In this document: positions 11,563 to 21,697 of the stretch, piece by piece
Numbering within the stretch: the stretch's first letter is position 1
Layout of the letters: the number at the start of each line of letters is the position of its first letter
Source of the DNA: Amycolatopsis endophytica
Lineage (GTDB): Bacteria; Actinomycetota; Actinomycetes; Mycobacteriales; Pseudonocardiaceae
DNA: 64,000 nucleotides
Reading direction: 5' to 3'
NCBI RefSeq assembly: GCF_013410405.1
Contig: NZ_JACCFK010000001.1
Span: forward strand, 4,650,001 to 4,714,000
The notes under the pieces: model-generated
What the model saw: only the letters and a program-made list of their open reading frames with translations
Database searches by the model: none
Told to the model about the DNA's origin: nothing
Position numbers and translations under genes: made by a program

Positions 11563-12025
11563 GCCGCTACGCGGGTTCCTCAAGCGCCGGGCTCGCAAGC
11601 TCGCAGTCGATGGTGGCCGCCCCGATTTTTGATTGTTTCTGCGCTTCGGATCGGGGTGCGGGCGGGTGGGGTGCTGGGTTGCGTTGCCGGGTGGCGGTGT
11701 GGTGGGCGGGTGGTGTCCCGGAAGGGCAAACACGCCAGCCGGAACGGCAAACACGCCAGCCGGAACGGCAAACACGCCGCGCGCGGCGGCGTGTTTGCCG
11801 CTCCGGGCGCCGTGTTTGCCGCTCCGGGCGCCGTGTTTGCTGCTCCGGGGCGCGAAACCACGTTCGCGGCCGGCGCCCGGCAGCGACAGGTGGCCCGGCG
11901 CGGTGTCTACCGGCCGTTCCTCTCCCGCAACCGATCCCCAGCCGCCACAACACTGAAAGAATCGGGTCCGGGAGACGGCAATCGGGGCGAAGTGAAGCCG
12001 GTGCTTGAGAAACCCGCGTAGCGGC
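11563..12025. mobile_element. 463-bp element with 28-bp terminal inverted repeats (MITE-like)
   Basis: The ends 11563-11590 and 11998-12025 are inverted repeats over 28 bp with two mismatches (left end begins GCCGCTACGCGGGTTCCTCA). The interior holds two opposed arrays of a 21-bp repeat (11718-11850) and no convincing gene; several open frames exist only because 21 is divisible by three. Together with its flanks it fills the gene-free stretch 11439-12044. The right end lies 20 bp beyond the stop of the luciferase-like gene. A non-autonomous transposable element or a large repetitive terminator/protein-binding element are both possible. No target-site duplication was recognised. Confidence 0.6.
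11718..11850. repeat. 21-bp repeat, three direct then three inverted copies
   Basis: Three copies of a 21-bp unit (11718-11738, 11739-11759, 11760-11780) share the core GGCAAACACGCC. After a short GC-rich centre the reverse complement GGCGTGTTTGCC appears three times with the same 21-bp period (GTGTTTGCC or GTGTTTGCT at 11791, 11812, 11833). The whole can fold into one long cruciform or hairpin of about 60 bp per arm. Confidence 0.9.
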
Positions 12026-13200: not shown

Positions 13201-13971
13201 CTACCGGAGCATCCCCAGCAGGACGTCACGCAGACCGGGCGACAGGGCGACCGTGTTCGCGGACTCCACCGTGTGGTCGCTGCCGTCGGTGTCCAGCACC
13301 AGCCCGCCGGCCTCGCGGACCAGCAGCACCCCCGCCATCGTGTCCCACGGCAGGTTCGACAGGTTCACCGTCGCGTCCAGGCGGCCGTCCGCGACCCACG
13401 CCAGATCCGCCGCGGCCGAACCGATCATGCGCACCCGCTCCGCCCGTGACCCCAGCGCCGCCAGCAGGGACAGGCGCAGCCGGTTCTTCGATCCGGCGCC
13501 CTCGCCCACGGCGAAATCGCCCACCGACACCATGGCGCGCCCGAGGTCGCGCACCCCGGACACGCCGATCCGCGTCTCGCCCGAGTAGGCGCCGTAGCCT
13601 TCGACGGCGGTGTAGACGGCGTCCAGGAACGGCAGGTCGATCGCGGCCACCACGGCGCTGGGCCCGGCGACCAGGGCCAGCGAGATCCCGGTCAGCGGGA
13701 TGCCACGGGCGAAGTTCGCCGTCCCGTCCACCGGGTCCAGCACCCACCACAGCTCGCCCCGCTCACCGCCGTGCTCCTCACCGACGACCCCGATGTCCGG
13801 CGTCTCCCGCGCCAGAAATCCGCGTACTGCCTCCTCCACGGCCAGGTCGATGTCGGTCACCAGATCGCGTTCGGCCTTCTCGGTGACCGACCGCGGCGCA
13901 CGCGAGGTCACGATGCGCCGCCCGAGAGCGACGGCTTCGCGGGCGACGGGGAGCAGGCCGAGGTGGTCCAC
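13201..13971 (-). CDS. inositol monophosphatase-family phosphatase
   Basis: 256-residue Mg-dependent phosphatase: metal sites VVGEEHGGERG, WWVLDPVDGTANFARGIP and C-terminal LPWDTMAGVLLVREAGG (the WD..AG motif). Could dephosphorylate inositol phosphate, histidinol phosphate or a nucleotide-derived phosphate. GTG 13971 follows the stop of the ribA-like gene by one base, so the two are translated together; this points to a phosphorylated intermediate made after the GTP cyclohydrolase step. The specific substrate is inference. Confidence 0.88.
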   Translation of the reverse strand: MDHLGLLPVAREAVALGRRIVTSRAPRSVTEKAERDLVTDIDLAVEEAVRGFLARETPDIGVVGEEHGGERGELWWVLDPVDGTANFARGIPLTGISLALVAGPSAVVAAIDLPFLDAVYTAVEGYGAYSGETRIGVSGVRDLGRAMVSVGDFAVGEGAGSKNRLRLSLLAALGSRAERVRMIGSAAADLAWVADGRLDATVNLSNLPWDTMAGVLLVREAGGLVLDTDGSDHTVESANTVALSPGLRDVLLGMLR

Positions 13972-13972
13972 G

Positions 13973-14584
13973 TCAGGACTCCGCGACGTCGAAGGCGTCC
14001 ACCTGCGGCAGGACGTGCCCGAGCCGGTCGCGCTTCGCGGTCAGGTACCGGATGTTGTCCGCGCTCGCGGGCGCCAGCAACGGCACGCGCGCGGCCACGC
14101 GGATCCCGTGCGACTCCAGTGCCGTGATCTTGTCCGGGTTGTTCGACATCAGCCGCACCGACCGCACCCCGAGGTGCCGCAGCACCCGCGCCGCCGGGCC
14201 GTAGTCACGCACGTCCACCGGCAGGCCGAGCGTCGTGGCGGAATCGACCGTGTCCAGGCCGCCCTCGTCCTGCAGTACGTGGGTGCGGACCTTCGCCACC
14301 AGGCCGATCCCGCGTCCCTCGTGCCCGCGCAGGTACACCAGCACCCCGCTGCCCGCCTCCACGATCGCGTCCAGCGCCGCGCCCAGCTGGTCGCCGCACT
14401 CGCAGCGCACGGCGCCGAACACGTCGCCGGTGAGGCATTCCGAGTGCACGCGCACCAGCACGTCGTCGCGCCGCAACCGCCCGTACACCAGCGCCAGATG
14501 CTCGGCCCCGTCCCGGAAGGCGACGGCGCGGAACGGGCCGCGGCGCGTGCTCAGCGTGGATTCGGCGATGTCCTGTTCGCGCAT
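13973..14584 (-). CDS. ribA: GTP cyclohydrolase II-like protein (RibA paralogue)
   Basis: 203 residues, single GCH II domain without the DHBP synthase half. Zn ligands Cys50, Cys61 and Cys63 are in HSECLTGDVFGAVRCECGDQ; GTP/phosphate contacts are in LRGHEGRGIGLVAK and VRLMSNNPDK. GCH II opens the GTP imidazole ring and releases formate and pyrophosphate. The active-site Tyr (E. coli Tyr105, in IRAYALQD) is replaced by His102 in VRTHVLQD. In Streptomyces coelicolor a paralogue with a substitution at this Tyr stops at the formylated (FAPy) product, so a similar shift is plausible here. Adjacent divergent creatininase-family gene would fit a deformylase. Probably not the housekeeping riboflavin enzyme. 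Confidence 0.88.
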   Translation of the reverse strand: MREQDIAESTLSTRRGPFRAVAFRDGAEHLALVYGRLRRDDVLVRVHSECLTGDVFGAVRCECGDQLGAALDAIVEAGSGVLVYLRGHEGRGIGLVAKVRTHVLQDEGGLDTVDSATTLGLPVDVRDYGPAARVLRHLGVRSVRLMSNNPDKITALESHGIRVAARVPLLAPASADNIRYLTAKRDRLGHVLPQVDAFDVAES

Positions 14585-14637
14585 GGGTTCCCCTCGTCGT
14601 CGACCGGGACCAGCTCGTTCCCGGTATACCTGAAACG

Positions 14638-15336
14638 ATGAATCCGCTCCCGCCGGACACCACCGGCGACGTGCGCGACCGCGAGCCCGCCGTGGCGGTC
14701 CTGCCCGTCGGAAGCCTCGAACAACACGGTCCGCACCTGCCGCTGACCACCGACACGCTGATCGCCTGCGCGGTCGCGGGAGAGATCGCGCGGGAGCACG
14801 GGTTCTGGCTGCTGCCGCCGGTCACCGTGTCCTGCTCGCACGAGCACGCCGCGTGGCCGGGCACGGTCAGCATCTCGGCGACGACGCTGGTGGCCGTCGT
14901 CGAGGACATCGCGGCGTCGCTGCGCGCCTCCGGCGTCGGCAAGCTCGTGCTGGTCAACGGGCACGGCGGCAACCACGTGCTGGCCAACGTCGTGCAGTCC
15001 GCGGGCGGGGCGATGGTCCTGTTCCCCGCCTACGGCGAATGGCAGGCGGCCCGCGCCGCCGCGGGTGTGCGGACGAGCAACGACGAAGACATGCACGCCG
15101 GTGAGCTGGAGACCTCCATCCTGCTGCACGCCAGCCCGGACGTGGTGCGGCCCGGCTACGCGGACGCGGATTCGGCACCCGGCGATCTGCGCCACCTCCT
15201 TTCGCTCGGACTGGCCCCCTACACACAGTCGGGGGTGGCGGGTCATCCGTCACGCGCTTCGGCCGGAAAAGGACGCGCGGTGCTGGCGGCGCTGACCGAG
15301 TCCTTCCGCGTGCACCTGCCCGTGCTCGGCGGGTGA
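14638..15336 (+). CDS. creatininase-family amidohydrolase
   Basis: 232-residue member of the creatininase/FAPy deformylase/MftE fold: metal site LPVGSLEQHGPHLPLTTDT, HEHAAWPGTVSIS, VLVNGHGGN, and DMHAGELETSILL with ligand His and Glu. The family includes creatinine amidohydrolase, MftE peptidase and archaeal ArfB, which deformylates FAPy ribonucleotide from GTP. No other mycofactocin gene is present, and it starts 53 bp from the divergent GTP cyclohydrolase II-like gene, so an ArfB-like deformylase role is the most attractive reading, though inferred. Its 3' half is overlapped antisense by the neighbouring membrane-protein frame. Confidence 0.88.
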   Translation: MNPLPPDTTGDVRDREPAVAVLPVGSLEQHGPHLPLTTDTLIACAVAGEIAREHGFWLLPPVTVSCSHEHAAWPGTVSISATTLVAVVEDIAASLRASGVGKLVLVNGHGGNHVLANVVQSAGGAMVLFPAYGEWQAARAAAGVRTSNDEDMHAGELETSILLHASPDVVRPGYADADSAPGDLRHLLSLGLAPYTQSGVAGHPSRASAGKGRAVLAALTESFRVHLPVLGG

Positions 15337-16198
15337 GGATGCCCGGCAGTGCCGCGACGAGCGTGAGCACCCCGTAGACGACCGACGTGGTGATCCCCGC
15401 GCCGGCGCCCAGCCCGGCGGCGGAGAACGCCACGGCCGAGAAGCCTTCGCGCGGGCCCCAGCCGCCGACGTTGAGCGGAACCGACATCACGACCAGCGCC
15501 CCGAGCCCGAGCGTCACGAGCGTGCCCAGCGGCGCCGCCACCCCGGCGACGCGCGCCGAGAGGACGAACATCGTGACGTGCCCGGCGATCGTCACCACCG
15601 AGAGCAGCACCACGCCCGCGCCCCGGGTTCCGCCGAACGCGCGCCGCCACGCGGGCCGCAGCGTCAGTGCGGTGGCGACGGCGACAGTCGCGGCGAGCGG
15701 CACCAGCAGCGCGGTGGTCCGGCCCAGGCCCGGCAGCAGATCCGGGCGGGCCGCCACCACGAACGCCCCGGCGGCCAGCAGCACGACCTGCCCGGCGAAC
15801 CGCTCCAGCGCGACGGCCCGCACCCCGCCCGTGAGGTCCCCCTCGCGGCGCCCCTGGCCCACCGCGCGCCCGACGTCGCCGAGGACCCCGGCGGGGAGGA
15901 CGGAGTTCAGCAGAATGGCGCGGTAGTAGGCCGGTACCGCCGTGGTGAGCCGCAGCGGCAGGCCGAGGGCGCGGCTGACGACACACCACCGGGCGGCGGC
16001 CGTGACGGTGGTGAGGAGCCCGAGCCCCAGCGCGAGGACGACCGCGATGGGATCGACGAGCCGCAGCCCGTCGAGGAACACACTGGCACCGGCCTGCCGC
16101 ACGAGCGCGACGAGAATCGCCGCTCCCGCGATCAGCCGCACCCAGGCCCACACCCGGCGCTTCCCCGAAGCCCCGTTGGGGGAGCGTGGGGCGCGCAT
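14954..16198 (-). CDS. flippase-like membrane protein (lysylphosphatidylglycerol synthase TM / UPF0104)
   Basis: N-terminal about 285 residues form a polytopic membrane protein of the UPF0104/AglD type: several hydrophobic helices, LPLRLTTAVPAYYRAILLNS, VLPAGVLGDVGRAV, VALERFAGQVVLL, and the signature VPLNVGGWGPREGFSAVAF. Relatives are implicated in transport or remodelling of lipid-linked sugars. ATG 16198 overlaps the methyltransferase stop (ATGA). After LPGILTRRA (about 15330) the frame continues antisense through the creatininase gene for 380 bp to 14954 as a basic, low-complexity tail. The tail is probably an accidental readthrough or reflects a lost stop codon; the reliable part is about 15340-16198. 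Confidence 0.75.
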   Translation of the reverse strand: MRAPRSPNGASGKRRVWAWVRLIAGAAILVALVRQAGASVFLDGLRLVDPIAVVLALGLGLLTTVTAAARWCVVSRALGLPLRLTTAVPAYYRAILLNSVLPAGVLGDVGRAVGQGRREGDLTGGVRAVALERFAGQVVLLAAGAFVVAARPDLLPGLGRTTALLVPLAATVAVATALTLRPAWRRAFGGTRGAGVVLLSVVTIAGHVTMFVLSARVAGVAAPLGTLVTLGLGALVVMSVPLNVGGWGPREGFSAVAFSAAGLGAGAGITTSVVYGVLTLVAALPGILTRRARAGARGRTRSAPPAPRVLFRPKRVTDDPPPPTVCRGPVRAKGGGADRRVPNPRPRSRAAPRPGWRAAGWRSPAHRRACLRRCSSAHPRRRGPPAIRRRRGTGPSPRPRTARRWPARGCRRAR

Positions 16199-17016
16199 CA
16201 GGTGGCCCCGATCGCGAGCAGGTCGGTGTGGTGCACGATCGCGCGCAGCTCGCCCGCCTCGCAGGCTTCGAGGCGGCGGCGGACGTAGTCGCGCGTGGGG
16301 AGACGCGGGTTCTGGCGCCGGGCCGCCGCCACCCAGCCGCGGAACCACTGGGTGGTCAGCTCCTGCTCGTCCGGGCCGAGGCGCCACGGGCTGGCCGCGC
16401 GGTGCACTGTCGCGCCGCGGCGGTCGAACGCCCACGTCGCGTAGGCGACCGCGTCGGGGCCCAGCAGGTCGCCGCGCCGCTGGTGGGCGTCGAAAGCGGC
16501 GGCGATCCCGGCGTCGAGCGGGTCTTCCGGCGTCAGCTCGACCCGGCCCGCCACCGACAACGTCAACAGCGCCGGGCACCCGGCCGCCGTGCAGGCGTCC
16601 GCGAGTTCATCCACTTCGGACGGAATGAGCAGGTCGAGCAGTGCCGACGTGGTCAGCAGCGAGGTCCCGCGCAGGTCGAGACCGGTGAGGTCGCCCTGCC
16701 GCGTCTCGAACGTGACGTCCGGCTCGGTCAACCAGGCGCGGTCGAGCAGGTCCGGGTCACGGTCGTGCAGGATCCAGTGCTGCGGCACCGGCAGCCGGGG
16801 AGCCAGCCAGCGCGCCATCGCCCCGGTGCCGCACCCCAGATCCCGGACGAGGATCCGGCCACCCGGGGCATCGGCATGGTTGCTCAGGAGCCGCCGGAGC
16901 GGAGCGATCAGCTCGGTCGCCCTGGCGACGGCGTCGGCCGGTTCACGCAGGGCCAGCCAGTCCGGCGCGCATCGGCTGGTGCCGGGGCCGGCGCCGTCCC
17001 ATCGATTGTCTGCCAC
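16198..17016 (-). CDS. class I SAM-dependent methyltransferase
   Basis: 272 residues with the AdoMet motif I VRDLGCGTGAMARWLAPRL, acidic motif II ILHDRDPDLL, and DVTFETRQGDLTG. It methylates an unknown acceptor, probably a small molecule or lipid head group in view of the neighbours. Starts at GTG 17016 (GAGAGGAGG immediately upstream, unusually close) and ends with a 4-bp overlap into the flippase-like gene. Fourth gene of the five-gene minus-strand run from 19426 to 14954. Confidence 0.87.
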   Translation of the reverse strand: MADNRWDGAGPGTSRCAPDWLALREPADAVARATELIAPLRRLLSNHADAPGGRILVRDLGCGTGAMARWLAPRLPVPQHWILHDRDPDLLDRAWLTEPDVTFETRQGDLTGLDLRGTSLLTTSALLDLLIPSEVDELADACTAAGCPALLTLSVAGRVELTPEDPLDAGIAAAFDAHQRRGDLLGPDAVAYATWAFDRRGATVHRAASPWRLGPDEQELTTQWFRGWVAAARRQNPRLPTRDYVRRRLEACEAGELRAIVHHTDLLAIGAT

Positions 17017-17037
17017 CCTCCTCTCACGGCCCGCGGC

Positions 17038-18054
17038 TCACCCCGGTTCACCGAGGAGCCGGTCCATGTCACCCGCGGCGTCCTCCCAGGTCGGCAGCGA
17101 AGCACGGCGCAGGCGAGCCGAGCGGCGCAGTGACGCCCGCAGACCAGGCGAACCCAGCCAGCTCCGCAAAGCCGCGGCCAGCGCGGACACGTCCCCGGGC
17201 GGGAACAGCAGTCCGGGCACCGAACCGTCCGCGGCCCGCCCCAACGCATCCTCGCCCGCCGAAGCCAGCACCGGAATCCCCCGCGCCAGTGCTTCGGTGA
17301 CCACCATCCCGTATGTCTCGGACCGCGACGGCAGCACCAGCAGACCCGCCCGGCCGTACGCGCGGTCCAGTCGCGCGCCGGTGAGGGGACCAGTCAACGT
17401 CACGCGAGAAGTCAGGTCGTGCCATGCGATCAGGTCCCGCACCCGCTCGGCGAAGGCGGGGGAGCGGCGCAGCGGCCCGGCCAGCGTGCACGTCCAGTCC
17501 AGATCGGCGACCGCCGCCAGCGCCTCGACCAGCACGTCCTGCCCCTTGTGCGGCGTCAGCGACCCCACGCACAGCAGCGCATCGCCCTCGGCGAGTGGCG
17601 CGGCGTCCGTGCCGGGAACCACCACGCGCGTGGAAGCCAGCCCGTGGTGGCGCACCAGCCACTGCGCGGTCCGCGCGCTCGTGGTCACCACCGCCCACGC
17701 CGCCCGCAGCGTCTCCCGCTCCCGCGCGTCCAGCCCCGGGTCGGCACCCGTCTCCTCGCCCAGCGGCATGTGCACCAGGACCACCAGCCGCAGCCGCCGC
17801 GCGTGCGGCACCACGACCTCCGGCACCCCGCACGCGACCAGCCCGTCGAGCACCACCAGCCCGTCCGCGTGCCGCAGCGCGCGGTCCAAGGCCGCTCGCG
17901 CGGCGGCGTCCGGATGCGGCCACGACCCCGCGACCGCGACCTGCCGCACCGAACGGCCCAGCGCCGTCAGGCCCGCGACGACCCGACGGTCGTAGACGTT
18001 GCCGCCGCTGGGCAGCTCCGGATCGTCGACGTCACCCGGCAGGACGAAGAGCAC
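17038..18054 (-). CDS. glycosyltransferase family 4
   Basis: 338-residue GT-B retaining glycosyltransferase: N-terminal [16 protein letters not shown] (acceptor side), donor-domain start [19 protein letters not shown], and the EX7E donor-binding motif in [19 protein letters not shown]. Shorter than usual (typically about 380). It transfers a nucleotide-sugar residue to an acceptor at the cytoplasmic side. Its start overlaps the PTPS-like stop by 23 bp. The combination with methyltransferase, CDP-alcohol transferase and flippase-like protein suggests assembly of a glycolipid or glycoside. Confidence 0.88.
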
Positions 18055-18442
18055 GATCGTAACTCGCCCAGGCCACGTGCGATTCGTGCAGCGTCACCGA
18101 AATCCCGGACAGGCCCCGCGCGCCCGCACCGAACGCGCCTTCGTGCACCCGGTCCGCCAGCCGGTCGGCGATCACCTTCGCCAGGAACTCCGTCGAGGTG
18201 TTGAGGCCGGCGAACGCCGGATCGTCGTCGAGGTTGCGGTGGTTGAGGTCACCGAGCACGGCGCCCAGCTGCCCGGTCGCCAGGCCGATGTCGACGACGA
18301 TGCCGTCCGCGTCCAGCTCCGCGCGGCGGAACGTCGCGTCCACCACGAACGTCGCGCCGTGCAATCGTTGCGCGGGACCGAAAACCTCGCCGCGGAAACT
18401 GTGGGCGACCATCATGTGGTCGCGGACGGTGACGCTGAACAA
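18032..18442 (-). CDS. 6-pyruvoyl/6-carboxy-tetrahydropterin synthase-like protein (PTPS/QueD fold), divergent
   Basis: 136 residues with the PTPS fold: [43 protein letters not shown] (the DF..LK-like strand/helix), [22 protein letters not shown] and [13 protein letters not shown]. Family enzymes act on dihydroneopterin triphosphate using Zn bound by three His. Here the LHGH motif is LHGA (Ala30) and the catalytic Cys a few residues before it is missing (PAQRLHG). Either the chemistry is altered or a different substrate such as a GTP-derived pyrimidine is used. No GTP cyclohydrolase I gene is in the window. Confidence 0.8.
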
Positions 18443-18451
18443 GCGATCCTC

Positions 18452-19426
18452 CTACGGGTAGACGACGCGGTGGCACAGCGCGGGAAGCGCGCCGGAGGCC
18501 AGGTCCGGCAGCACCGAGGGCAGGTCCTCGAACACGCACTCGCCGGTGACCAGTGTGTCGAAGGCCGGGTCGGCGAGCAGGTCCAGCGCGAGCGCGAGCC
18601 GGTCGCCGGACGTGCGCCGCGACCGCCGGGCCGGGGAAACCATCCCGACCTGGCTGCCGCGGATCGACAACCGCCGCGAGTGGAAGAACTCACCCAGCGG
18701 CACGGTCACCCGCCGGTCGCCGTACCAGCTCAGCTCGATCACCTCGCCTTCCGGCGCGAGCAGTTCCAGTGACCGCGTCAGACCGGCGTCCGTCCCGCTG
18801 GTGTGCACGACGAGGTCGCATCCGGGTTCGGCCTCGTCCGGCAGCGCGAACCCGGCACCCAGGCGGGAAGCGACCGCGGCCCGCGCCGGATCGAGGTCGA
18901 CCAGCTGCACCCGCACCGCCGGGAACCGGGCGAGCAGCGCCGCGACCGCGCAGCCGACCATGCCGCCGCCGACCACCGCGATCCGGTCGCCGATCAGCGG
19001 CGCCGCGTCCCACACCGCGTTCACCGCGGTCTCGACCGTGCCGGCCAGGATCGCCCGCCCCGCCGGCACACCGTCGGGCACCACGGTCACCGCGTTCGCG
19101 GGCACCACGAACCGGGTCTGGTGCGGGAACAGGCTGAACACCGTGCGGCCCAGCAGGTCCGGCGGCCCCTGCTCGACCACGCCCACGTTGAGGTAGCCGT
19201 ACTTCACCGGCCCCGGGAAGTCGCCCTCCTGGAACGGCGCGCGCATCAGTTCGTGCTGGCTTTCCGGCACCCCGCCGCGGAAGACGAGCGTCTCGGTGCC
19301 GCGGCTCACGCCCGAGAACAGCGTGCGGACCCCGGCCTCGCCCGGCCCCGGCTCGGGCACCGTGACCTGCCGGATCTCACCCACGCCGGGTGAGCTGAAC
19401 CAGAACGCCCGTGCGGCACGTGTCAT
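18452..19426 (-). CDS. MDR (zinc-type alcohol dehydrogenase-like) oxidoreductase
   Basis: 324-residue medium-chain dehydrogenase: GroES-like N-terminal half with FSGVSRGTETLVF, Rossmann half with IAVVGGGMVGCAVAALLARF and LVDLDPARAAVA. The catalytic-zinc Cys of true alcohol dehydrogenases is not evident (SGVSRGTE replaces the CGTDxH type). This is typical of the BchC/quinone-reductase-like branches. First gene of the minus-strand run; 9 bp before the PTPS-like gene. Its ATG overlaps one possible start of the divergent CDP-alcohol transferase. Would oxidise or reduce a pathway intermediate with NAD(P)H. Confidence 0.85.
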   Translation of the reverse strand: MTRAARAFWFSSPGVGEIRQVTVPEPGPGEAGVRTLFSGVSRGTETLVFRGGVPESQHELMRAPFQEGDFPGPVKYGYLNVGVVEQGPPDLLGRTVFSLFPHQTRFVVPANAVTVVPDGVPAGRAILAGTVETAVNAVWDAAPLIGDRIAVVGGGMVGCAVAALLARFPAVRVQLVDLDPARAAVASRLGAGFALPDEAEPGCDLVVHTSGTDAGLTRSLELLAPEGEVIELSWYGDRRVTVPLGEFFHSRRLSIRGSQVGMVSPARRSRRTSGDRLALALDLLADPAFDTLVTGECVFEDLPSVLPDLASGALPALCHRVVYP

Positions 19427-19460
19427 GGGTCAGACCTCCGGCGAAGGGAACGCGGTCGCG

Positions 19461-20153
19461 ATGATCGTCCAGACCCAGCGTGTCACGATTCCGGCCCGCC
19501 AGGAACTGTCCGTGGCCGCGTGCGCCCTGCTCGTGCTGCTGAACACGCTCGCGATGACCGTGGGCCTGGACCCGCTGGGCTGGCTCGCCGGCGCCGGGTA
19601 CGGAATGGCGCTGTGGGCGCTGCTCGCCGCCGCGTTGCGCCGCGGCGGCCGCCCGGCGCTGAGCCCGGCCGACCACGTGACCCTGACCCGCGCCACGCTC
19701 GTCGGCGGAGTCGTCGCACTGGTGGTCACCGGAATCGCGGGCCCGGTGCTCGTCGTGCTCGCGGCGGTGGCGCTCGCGCTGGACGCCGTCGACGGTCGCG
19801 TCGCCCGCCGCACCGGAACCGCCTCGCCGCTGGGCGCGCGCTTCGACATGGAGGTCGACGCCTTCCTCATCCTCGTGCTCAGCGCCGCCGCGGCGGTGTC
19901 GCTGGGGCCATGGGTGCTGGCGATCGGCCTGATGCGCTACGCGTTCGTCGCCGCCGGATGGGCGATGCCGTGGCTGCGCGGCCCGCTGCCGCCGGACCTG
20001 GCGCGCAAAGCGGTCGCCGCCGCGCAGGGCATCGCACTGGTCGTCGTGGTCGCGGACGTGCTGACCTGGTCCTGGACCGTGGCCGCCGGAGCGCTCGCGG
20101 CGCTGGGGTGGTCGTTCGGGCGGGACGTGATCCGGCTGTGGCGCACCCGGTGA
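19461..20153 (+). CDS. CDP-alcohol phosphatidyltransferase
   Basis: 230-residue membrane enzyme with the complete family motif D-x2-D-G-x2-A-R-x8-G-x3-D-x3-D: Asp108, Asp111-Gly112, Ala115-Arg116, Gly125, Asp129, Asp133. It couples a CDP-activated lipid or alcohol to a hydroxyl acceptor in the inner membrane. Five to six hydrophobic segments. Start ATG 19461 has GAAGGGA at 19443-19449; an alternative ATG 19425 overlaps the divergent MDR gene start. Its stop overlaps the next gene (GTGA), so the two are coupled. Acceptor unknown; the neighbouring phosphatase, glycosyltransferase and sulfatase-fold enzyme suggest a specialised phospholipid. Confidence 0.88.
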   Translation: MIVQTQRVTIPARQELSVAACALLVLLNTLAMTVGLDPLGWLAGAGYGMALWALLAAALRRGGRPALSPADHVTLTRATLVGGVVALVVTGIAGPVLVVLAAVALALDAVDGRVARRTGTASPLGARFDMEVDAFLILVLSAAAAVSLGPWVLAIGLMRYAFVAAGWAMPWLRGPLPPDLARKAVAAAQGIALVVVVADVLTWSWTVAAGALAALGWSFGRDVIRLWRTR

Positions 20154-21697
20154 TCGCGCGACGGGTGGCGGACGTCCTCGCGTGCGTGCTGGTGTTCGCC
20201 GCGCTGGTCGTGCCGGGCAACCCGCACCTGCTCGGGCCGGGAGCGTTCCTGCGGATCCCGGCGGAGGCGCTGGCCGGGATCGCGCTGGTACTGGTCCTGC
20301 CCGCGCGGGCGCGCCGGATCGTGGCCGCCGTGGCGGGCGCGTTCCTCGGCGTGCTCACCCTGGTGAAGATCGCCGACATCGGGTTCTACCGCGCCTTCGA
20401 CCGGCCGTTCAGCCTGGTGTTCGACTGGTCCTTCGCCGGCCCCGCGCTGAGCCTGCTCGGTGGGGCCGCGCGGGTCGCCACCGTGGCTGGGGTGGTGCTG
20501 GCCGCCATCGCCCTCGTGGCGCTGACGACGCTCGCGGCCGTGCGGTTGGCGCGCCTGGCCGCGGACCACCGCGCGACCTCGGCGCGGATCGTCGTCGTGC
20601 TCACGGCCGGCTGGATCGCGGCCGCGCTGACCGGCGCGCCACTGGCCGCGCGCACGACCGCCGCGCTGGCCTACCGTGAAGTCCGTGCCGTCGCCTCGGA
20701 TCTGGCCGACCAGCGCGAGTTCGCCGCCGAAATGGCCACCGACGCCTTCCGTGACACCCCATCGGACAGACTGCTGACCTCGTTGCGGGGCAAGGACTTC
20801 CTGCTCACCTTCGTGGAGAGCTACGGACGGGTCGCCCTCGACGACCCCGGCGTCACCGCGCTCCTCGACGCCGCGACCGTCCGCCTGCGCGCCGACGGGT
20901 TCAGCGCGCGCAGCGCCTTCCTCGCATCCCCGACGAGCGGTGGGGGCAGCTGGCTCGCACACTCCACAATGGAATCCGGGCTGTGGGTGGACAACCAGCA
21001 GCGCTACTCCACGTTCACCGCCGGCGACCGGCTGACGCTCTCCGGTGCCTTCGCCCGCGCGGGCTGGCGCACCGTGAACGTCCAGCCGGAAAACGGGACC
21101 GACTGGCCCGAGGGCGCGGTCTACGGCTTCCAGAAGATCTACGACGCGCGCAACCTCGGCTACCGCGGCCCGAACTTCTCCTACGCGACGATGCCCGACC
21201 AGTTCGCGCTCGGCGCGTTCCAGCGCGCGGAGATGACGCCGGGACACCCGCCGGTGATGGCCGAACTCGATCTGGTGTCCAGCCACTGGCCGTGGGCGCC
21301 GCTACCGGCTCCGGCCGACTGGAACTCGATGGGCGACGGCTCGGCGTTCACCCCCACGGGCCCGTCGGTCGACGAGGTGTGGTCGGACCCCGCGCGCGTG
21401 CGCACCGCCTACGGTGACTCGATCGAGTACTCCTTGTCGGCGCTCGTGTCCTACGTCGAAACCTACGGCGACGACGATCTGGTGCTCGTGTTCCTCGGCG
21501 ACCACCAGCCCAACACCTCCGTCACCGGTGAGGGCGCGGGCCGGGACGTGCCGGTGACGCTGGTGGCCCGCGATTCCGCCGTGCTCGGCAGGGTGGCCAG
21601 GTGGGGCTGGCACGACGGACCACGGCCGGGTCCGGACGCCCCGGTCTGGCCGATGAACGCTTTTCGCGACCGGTTCCTCGGCGCCTTCGGGCCTTGA
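20150..21697 (+). CDS. membrane-anchored sulfatase-fold enzyme (LtaS/phosphoglycerol transferase-like)
   Basis: 515 residues: about five N-terminal transmembrane helices (to about residue 165), then an extracellular alkaline-phosphatase-superfamily domain. Metal/nucleophile elements: [11 protein letters not shown] (metal Glu), [18 protein letters not shown] (region of the Ser/Thr nucleophile), DLVSSHWPW, and [13 protein letters not shown] (metal Asp-His). No Cys-x-Pro-x-Arg sulfatase signature, so phospho-head-group transfer or hydrolysis on the outer membrane face is likelier than sulfate ester cleavage. GTG 20150 overlaps the preceding stop (GTGA). Likely acts on the lipid made by the CDP-alcohol transferase. 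Confidence 0.85.

Follow-up and report, generated by a model that had tools for sequence, protein, structure and literature searches.

A widely conserved gene neighbourhood in Amycolatopsis endophytica, possibly for a GTP-derived, glycosylated pteridine-like compound

A stretch of 64,000 nucleotides from Amycolatopsis endophytica (contig NZ_JACCFK010000001.1, positions 4,650,001 to 4,714,000; referred to below as the window) contains, at 13201-21697, a locus of ten genes. These specify a GTP cyclohydrolase II paralogue (RibA), a creatininase-family protein, a phosphatase, a T-fold protein of the 6-pyruvoyltetrahydropterin synthase type (PTPS), a medium-chain dehydrogenase/reductase (MDR), a glycosyltransferase, a methyltransferase, and three lipid-side proteins: a flippase-like protein, a CDP-alcohol phosphatidyltransferase and an LtaS-like membrane enzyme. 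The locus represents a real, widely conserved orphan pathway; no description of its product was found in the open-access literature searched. We give an even chance to the reading that it is an accessory biosynthetic locus that makes from GTP a pteridine-like compound bearing sugar and methyl groups. In this lineage the compound would probably be attached to a membrane lipid or exported together with one.

Conservation of the gene neighbourhood

The linkage survey was anchored on the MDR gene alone, its neighbours then being scored. In Actinomycetota, the MDR was found in 38 of 296 genomes sampled across the phylum and in 62 of 394 sampled across the class, four of these 62 matches being weak (G401, G434, G496 and G505). 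A total of 80 loci was taken from 78 of 91 listed genomes, the window's own not being counted. The MDR, PTPS and glycosyltransferase genes occurred together, as a core, in 78 loci, the two exceptions (L104 and L105) stemming from weak MDR matches. The 78 core loci also encoded the methyltransferase (61 loci), RibA (50), the CDP-alcohol phosphatidyltransferase (49), the flippase (48), a RibD_C reductase (42), the creatininase (30), the LtaS-like enzyme (18), FolB (17) and the inositol monophosphatase-like (IMPase-like) phosphatase (2; L077 and L087, the only ones among the 80 loci). The methyltransferase count pools two families, the window type matching better in 46 loci of the 80-locus set and the Rubrobacter type in 15. 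At least one lipid-side gene was present in 46 of the 70 loci with RibA or RibD_C, and all three in 16. This linkage exceeds what chance would produce. A preliminary description of the window, made from its sequence alone, had tied the GTP-side genes to the lipid-side genes and held that this tie would fall if their linkage were not conserved elsewhere; the two sets are in fact linked in other actinobacteria.

The MDR has at least 8000 homologues at E ≤ 1e-40 and, among the matches listed, its nearest named relative is that of Amycolatopsis thermophila (87% identity). An MDR-alignment scan of named genome contigs returned 371 encoding stretches, 80 of which were kept as a second set (eleven duplicate first-set contigs, and many are short). 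They come from Rubrobacter, Chloroflexi (including Chloroploca, Roseiflexaceae and Sphaerobacter), haloarchaea, marine Gammaproteobacteria, one metagenome-assembled Opitutaceae genome, and others; 67 of the 80 contained the glycosyltransferase, 66 PTPS, 63 RibD_C and 33 RibA. The OM182 locus L185 has the order RibA-RibD_C-MDR-PTPS-glycosyltransferase-methyltransferase with, on the other strand, the flippase, the CDP-alcohol transferase and then an alkaline phosphatase (AlkP) superfamily enzyme; its methyltransferase, PTPS and CDP-alcohol transferase share 32%, 27% and 34% identity (the last over 152 columns), respectively, with their counterparts in the window. The flippase and CDP-alcohol phosphatidyltransferase genes adjoin the core in nine of the 11 Gammaproteobacteria/Opitutaceae loci, and the remaining two loci end ≤2 kb from PTPS. 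The transferase was matched here by the actinobacterial profile, the flippase by L185's own sequence only. Of the lipid or head-group part proposed in the preliminary description, these two genes stay linked to the core in both Actinomycetota and Gammaproteobacteria/Opitutaceae; the LtaS-like part is not conserved in the latter, where L185 was the only locus found to have an AlkP enzyme.

Neither RibA nor RibD_C was found in nine haloarchaeal loci (two of which stop a short distance from the MDR, and one of which, L193, also has no PTPS). Archaeal riboflavin synthesis already makes a ribityl diaminopyrimidine while bacterial synthesis does not, which would explain why bacterial, and not haloarchaeal, loci need RibA and RibD_C, and suggests that this ribityl compound is the one consumed by the MDR/PTPS core. 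Haladaptatus pallidirubidus has two places on one chromosome (L187 and L189) with identical MDR-PTPS-glycosyltransferase scores. A scan of viral contigs with the MDR gave no match.

Beyond the families already named, FolB, a PlsC-like acyltransferase and a major facilitator superfamily (MFS) protein adjoin the core in loci of the Rubrobacter type and in some of Chloroflexi, while other neighbours are lineage-specific; gene calls used for this listing were weak on low-GC loci. In L042, L046, L049, L160 and similar loci of these two kinds, FolB and the PlsC-like acyltransferase are sometimes joined by the MFS transporter, and no CDP-alcohol phosphatidyltransferase or flippase gene was found; this set may be an alternative means of lipidation or export. 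Several Streptomyces-like loci (e.g. L036, 524-3955) have a DAO-type oxidoreductase gene and saccharopine/lysine-ketoglutarate-reductase-like genes directly after RibA. One actinobacterium (G302) carries two different MDR-PTPS-glycosyltransferase loci (L083 and L097). Three loci of family f4 (L040, L098 and L101) have this trio with neither RibA nor RibD_C in the locus, and the RibD_C type of L039 was not found in these genomes.

The RibA switch residue and the creatininase

The window RibA paralogue scores above the PF00925 cut-off and has three zinc cysteines (CCC), which places it in the RibA class; these cysteines are kept in all 52 aligned rows, that of E. coli included. Its His102 is aligned with Tyr105 of the E. 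coli enzyme (PDB 2bz0), the Tyr by which canonical GTP cyclohydrolase II, which forms the deformylated pyrimidine APy, is recognised, and the window protein is thus not of the canonical type. A residue other than Tyr (Met, His, Leu or Gln) occupied this switch position in 33 of 51 cluster RibA sequences, and a creatininase gene was found near every one of the 33: in 31 cases within the fetched locus and in two at ∼10 and ∼14 kb (67% and 65% identical). The 18 Tyr-type sequences of this first set all came from loci with RibD_C and without creatininase. In the second set, RibA had Tyr in 33 loci out of 33, none with creatininase and 32 with RibD_C, so that for the two sets pooled the count of creatininase genes is zero in the loci of 51 Tyr-type RibA rows. 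When two Tyr-type genomes were searched genome-wide for creatininase, one had no match at the E 1e-15 level, and all that the other had was a paralogue of 35% identity.

We have not seen this rule, by which a non-Tyr RibA and a creatininase go together, stated before; it can serve to check the annotation of RibA paralogues and to detect misnamed creatininases. In work of Spoonamore and colleagues in 2006, SCO6655 of Streptomyces coelicolor, with Met120 at the switch, reportedly released 2-amino-5-formylamino-6-ribosylamino-4(3H)-pyrimidinone 5′-phosphate (FAPy), and restoring Tyr is said to have restored APy. The simplest reading of the association is that the creatininase would have taken over deformylation, the role of ArfB in archaea, with RibA stopping at the formylated pyrimidine. 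The first two steps of the pathway can now be predicted.

Residues E28, H30, D39, H109, E156 and E158 are invariant in 31 creatininase sequences, as befits the creatininase superfamily. Against the ArfB model NF033501 the window protein scored 40.8 bits (cut-off 180) and is therefore no ArfB by that model; this model gave no match above 38.3 bits in five haloarchaeal genomes, and one control genome alone passed its cut-off, a Haloferax control also falling below. Identity with MftE of the mycofactocin pathway was rejected (TIGR03964, 134.8 bits against a cut-off of 172).

The RibD_C reductase

A RibD_C reductase belongs to the gene set and, in most carriers of the MDR, is encoded either in the cluster or elsewhere. 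In genus g8, with 19 carriers, it was unlinked in 15 and in the cluster in four, with no genome having both; in four Streptomyces-like g8 loci the gene adjoins that of the creatininase. The unlinked gene lies near a second, Tyr-type RibA in three of the four g8 carriers examined. The candidate in the window's own genome lies at C1:3.68 Mb (L208, 8428-9552), and shares 60% identity with the gene that L039 has in its cluster. In a first test, unlinked RibD_C was found in 32 of 32 carriers without an in-cluster copy and in 3 of 20 MDR-negative genomes (Fisher P = 5e-11). A wider test, a hand tally of two 394-genome draws (apparently the same draw), covered the 58 genomes left after removing the four weak MDR matches from the 62: 49 had the unlinked type, six a divergent in-cluster copy and three none. 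The reductase part of the unlinked type has relatives in 103 of the 394 class genomes. The reduction step probably exists in the window's lineage.

PTPS-IV, the MDR and the lipid-side proteins

The window PTPS is orthologous to SCO6650 (PDB 3d7j; 132 residues aligned, 235 bits), and its FGPAQ signature places it in subfamily PTPS-IV. HGA replaces HGH, and the catalytic Cys is absent: the 144 rows with a letter in its column have Ala (119, the window included) or Glu (25), and a neighbouring Cys, shifted by one position, occurs in L175 only. The absence of a catalytic Cys before HGH excludes QueD/PTPS-I and PTPS-II as identities. The conserved Glu of the T-fold, which in relatives binds the edge of the 2-amino-4-oxo ring, was present in 143 of 143 rows.

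In the MDR, the positions that we take to be those of the catalytic zinc ligands (Cys, and the His-Glu of GHE) are occupied in 27 of 27 rows by SxGTE and GY-type residues, and a zinc-dependent polyol or alcohol dehydrogenase was rejected for this reason. Its AlphaFold model is nearest to xylitol, idonate and sorbitol dehydrogenases, that is, it has the polyol dehydrogenase fold. BchC, threonine dehydrogenase and other names scored below their cut-offs.

The CDP-alcohol phosphatidyltransferase carries, complete, the catalytic motif D-x2-DG-x2-AR-x8-G-x3-D-x3-D. In the LtaS-like enzyme, E223, T262, H379, D451 and H452 are invariant in 19 sequences; we assign these to the Glu, Thr, His and Asp-His set of the AlkP superfamily, in which the enzyme can be placed. 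Its profile weakly matches the lipoteichoic acid primase 4uop (E 5.5e-4). The preliminary description deduced from such families a glycosylated or phosphorylated lipid as product. The existence of core-only loci makes a soluble core product probable, to which lipid coupling would be added.

Proposed pathway and its alternatives

The chemical steps, all deduced from the protein families and their association, would run as follows. The RibA paralogue without Tyr would open GTP and release FAPy, which the creatininase-family enzyme would deformylate to APy; we consider these two steps likely. A RibD_C reductase, in the cluster in many lineages and here perhaps the unlinked candidate, would convert the ribosyl into a ribityl chain, a step we think reasonably probable. 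The zinc-less, polyol-dehydrogenase-like MDR may then oxidise C2′ of the ribityl chain, and the PTPS-IV T-fold protein would guide cyclisation to a dihydropterin. Together, reduction at C1′ and oxidation at C2′ amount to the Amadori step performed by GTP cyclohydrolase I. We advance this fourth step, by the MDR and PTPS-IV, tentatively. The phosphatase, glycosyltransferase and methyltransferase would finish a soluble product, our best guess for which is a pterin glycoside with a methyl group, which some lineages would anchor to a lipid. The CDP-alcohol transferase might link it to CDP-diacylglycerol, the flippase turn it outward and the LtaP-like enzyme, where present, modify it outside, a set of events that we put a little below even chance. 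The preliminary description had GTP opened, deformylated and reduced or rearranged; opening and deformylation are supported by the way in which the creatininase tracks the switch residue, and reduction by the presence of a RibD_C reductase in the gene set, even if the window itself holds none.

Several observations weigh against the proposed pteridine pathway. No RibD_C gene was found in the window. The one in the same genome is fused to a C-terminal cytidine-deaminase-like domain, in reverse order with respect to RibD; unlinked RibD_C is also present in six further g8 genomes without the MDR, and the wider test found RibD_C in 54 of 332 MDR-negative genomes, which weakens the co-occurrence. 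In the RibA tree all non-Tyr sequences form one side of one branch, so that Tyr was lost in a single, ancient event, which no sequence in the sample has undone; the position has since drifted among four residues. A PTPS without its catalytic Cys argues against pterin chemistry, and 17 Rubrobacter-type loci with the core had no detectable lipid gene, profile search included, which argues against lipid coupling.

The missing Cys would suit the strongest competitor, which we nevertheless regard as unlikely: the early steps would be the same but no pterin ring would form, the MDR and PTPS-IV modifying the ribityl (or ribosyl) side chain to give a glycosylated, methylated diaminopyrimidine or lumazine-type product, perhaps a precursor or signal. 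RibA and RibD_C are just the enzymes for a ribityl diaminopyrimidine, but dihydropterin chemistry is indicated by the invariant T-fold Glu and by the FolB genes that adjoin the core in loci of the Rubrobacter type and of Chloroflexi. Less probable still are two neighbouring pathways with no common intermediate, one making a soluble pteridine glycoside (RibA through glycosyltransferase and methyltransferase), the other being an independent polar-lipid module (CDP-alcohol phosphatidyltransferase, flippase and LtaS-like enzyme). The 17 Rubrobacter-type loci are consistent with this, as is the window, where the CDP-alcohol phosphatidyltransferase and LtaS-like genes form their own unit; against it speak the recurrence of core, flippase and CDP-alcohol phosphatidyltransferase, in rearranged order, in Actinomycetota and Gammaproteobacteria/Opitutaceae, and the frequency of lipid-side genes in loci with RibA or RibD_C.

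F420 has no hexose or methyl group that would call for a glycosyltransferase and a methyltransferase, and a service of PTPS-IV and its neighbours in the synthesis of this cofactor is very improbable. FbiC/CofH was above cut-off in 14 of 24 carriers (two haloarchaea were strong but below), and a role in F420 synthesis is hinted at, marked as unpublished, in Zallot et al. 2016 (PMC5041015). However, eight of the 24 had no CofH match or one below 30 bits, among them two Chloroploca genomes, G428 (listed as 100% complete, with a full cluster, L089) and G008 (also listed as 100% complete), which contradicts F420 as a general product. Ordinary duplication for spare riboflavin or folate supply, to which the vitamin-pathway families and the FolB genes of some phyla might point, is the least probable of all: RibA-type matches occur at two other places in the window's genome, which also has one GTP cyclohydrolase I, the lost switch residue and the glycosyltransferase, methyltransferase, MDR and lipid genes would go unexplained, and GTP cyclohydrolase I is present in 16 of 18 carriers tested (both exceptions haloarchaea), which also excludes the cluster as a FolE replacement.

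A bolder version of the pteridine pathway would extend across actinomycetes, Rubrobacter, Chloroflexi, haloarchaea and marine Gammaproteobacteria. In it, GTP cyclohydrolase II, a deformylase, a RibD_C reductase, a polyol dehydrogenase and a T-fold cyclase would replace GTP cyclohydrolase I in a split, cross-domain route to a glycosylated pterin; in at least two phyla the product would be a phosphatidyl-pterin glycoside displayed on the outer face of the membrane, where its lipid anchor would hold it as an extracellular cofactor for redox reactions or light absorption. We know of no cofactor of this kind, and hold this version to be rather unlikely. Why the Streptomyces GTP cyclohydrolase II reportedly stops at FAPy, and what SCO6650 does, are now testable questions, the prediction being that the adjacent creatininase deformylates, that RibD_C reduces, and that the MDR and PTPS-IV carry out the first committed steps. 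As the family is large and extends over both bacteria and archaea, it may hide a cofactor, signal or surface lipid that is new, common and so far overlooked.

Arrangement of the genes in the window

Open reading frames were listed and scored with Pfam/NCBIfam profiles; all ten adjacent genes of the preliminary description were recovered, and the family matches agree with the names given there (Table 1).

Table 1. Genes and features of the locus (window coordinates; scores are for the profiles named)
Feature	Position	Strand	Remarks
IMPase-like phosphatase	13201..13971	-	GTG start; 1 base after RibA; Inositol_P PF00459, 162 bits
GTP cyclohydrolase II paralogue (RibA)	13973..14584	-	GTP_cyclohydro2 PF00925, 203 bits; His102 against E. 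coli Tyr105
His102 codon, switch residue of the RibA paralogue	14279..14281	-	Alignment to 2bz0
Creatininase-family amidohydrolase, proposed FAPy deformylase	14638..15336	+	Creatininase PF02633, 209 bits
Flippase-like membrane protein	14954..16198	-	LPG_synthase_TM PF03706, 70 bits; Pfam domain ends near 15340
Class I S-adenosylmethionine (SAM) methyltransferase	16198..17016	-	26.5 bits, just below Pfam cut-off of 27
GT4-type glycosyltransferase (group 1)	17038..18054	-	PF00534, 95 bits
PTPS-like T-fold protein	18032..18442	-	TTG start; PF01242, 85 bits; SCO6650/PTPS-IV type
Zinc-less MDR dehydrogenase	18452..19426	-	ADH_zinc_N, 31.9 bits (cut-off 31.8)
CDP-alcohol phosphatidyltransferase	19461..20153	+	CDP-OH_P_transf PF01066, 41 bits
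LtaS/LtaP-like membrane enzyme, AlkP superfamily	20150..21697	+	Sulfatase PF00884, 28 bits (cut-off 25)

The CDP-alcohol phosphatidyltransferase and LtaS-like genes overlap at 20150-20153, base 16198 is common to the methyltransferase stop and the flippase start, PTPS and the glycosyltransferase overlap by 23 bases, and a single base separates RibA from the phosphatase gene. Such spacing agrees with the coordinated expression claimed earlier, co-expression being a deduction from it, but not with a single operon, since the genes form at least four runs on two strands: MDR-PTPS-glycosyltransferase-methyltransferase-flippase (-), RibA-IMPase (-), creatininase (+) and CDP-alcohol phosphatidyltransferase-LtaS-like (+). 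The lone creatininase gene sits between the flippase and RibA, and the last run diverges from the MDR. The flippase frame is open to 14954 and so runs for ∼380 bases antisense over the creatininase 3′-end (14954-15340); in L036 the flippase and creatininase matches are ∼110 bases apart. Outside the locus, at ∼11570-11860, overlapping open reading frames on both strands with repeated short motifs (RQTR.PE, RVCRSG) suggest that an intergenic region here contains short repeats, both tandem and inverted.

Comparison with known systems

The LtaS-like enzyme resembles LtaP/LtaS in its AlkP-superfamily residues and in its weak profile match to LtaP; the match is a distant one, and the conserved neighbours of the cluster include no lipoteichoic acid genes. 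The pterin glycosides of cyanobacteria start from GTP cyclohydrolase I and PTPS-II, and we know of no lipid module associated with them. As glycosylated pterins, they represent an analogous soluble product.

The archaeal ArfA/ArfB/ArfC route has FAPy formation, deformylation by a creatininase-family enzyme and RibD_C reduction in the same order. Here, however, FAPy would come from a GTP cyclohydrolase II fold and not from the GGDEF-like cyclohydrolase III of ArfA; the creatininase scores far below the ArfB cut-off, and, unlike for riboflavin, the locus has no deaminase or lumazine gene.

SCO6655 is an S. coelicolor GTP cyclohydrolase II paralogue that has reportedly been assayed, and the study of SCO6650 reportedly describes a protein without zinc and without the catalytic triad. 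The papers on the two proteins are not known to describe a product. Nothing relevant on SCO6650 was found in the open-access literature searched; SCO6655 is listed in one paper's flux/expression table, most of whose genes rise in stationary phase. The preliminary description's claim that no pathway with this combination had been described was too strong, the structure of SCO6650 having been solved (3d7j) and a 2017 network study (PMC5445326) placing PF00925 and PF01872 beside PTPS-IV. That subfamily of COG0720 (AGeNNT cluster-node 62), defined there by FGPAQ, agrees with the window in signature and neighbours, while the section of that study on the subfamily names no MDR, glycosyltransferase, methyltransferase, creatininase, lipid genes or function. 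The closest system is the SCO6650-SCO6655 region of S. coelicolor. In loci L034-L038, which have a SCO6650-like PTPS and Met at the switch, the order CDP-alcohol phosphatidyltransferase-MDR-PTPS-glycosyltransferase-methyltransferase-flippase-creatininase-RibA is the relative order of the window; the latter has LtaS-like and IMPase genes in addition, and His at the switch.

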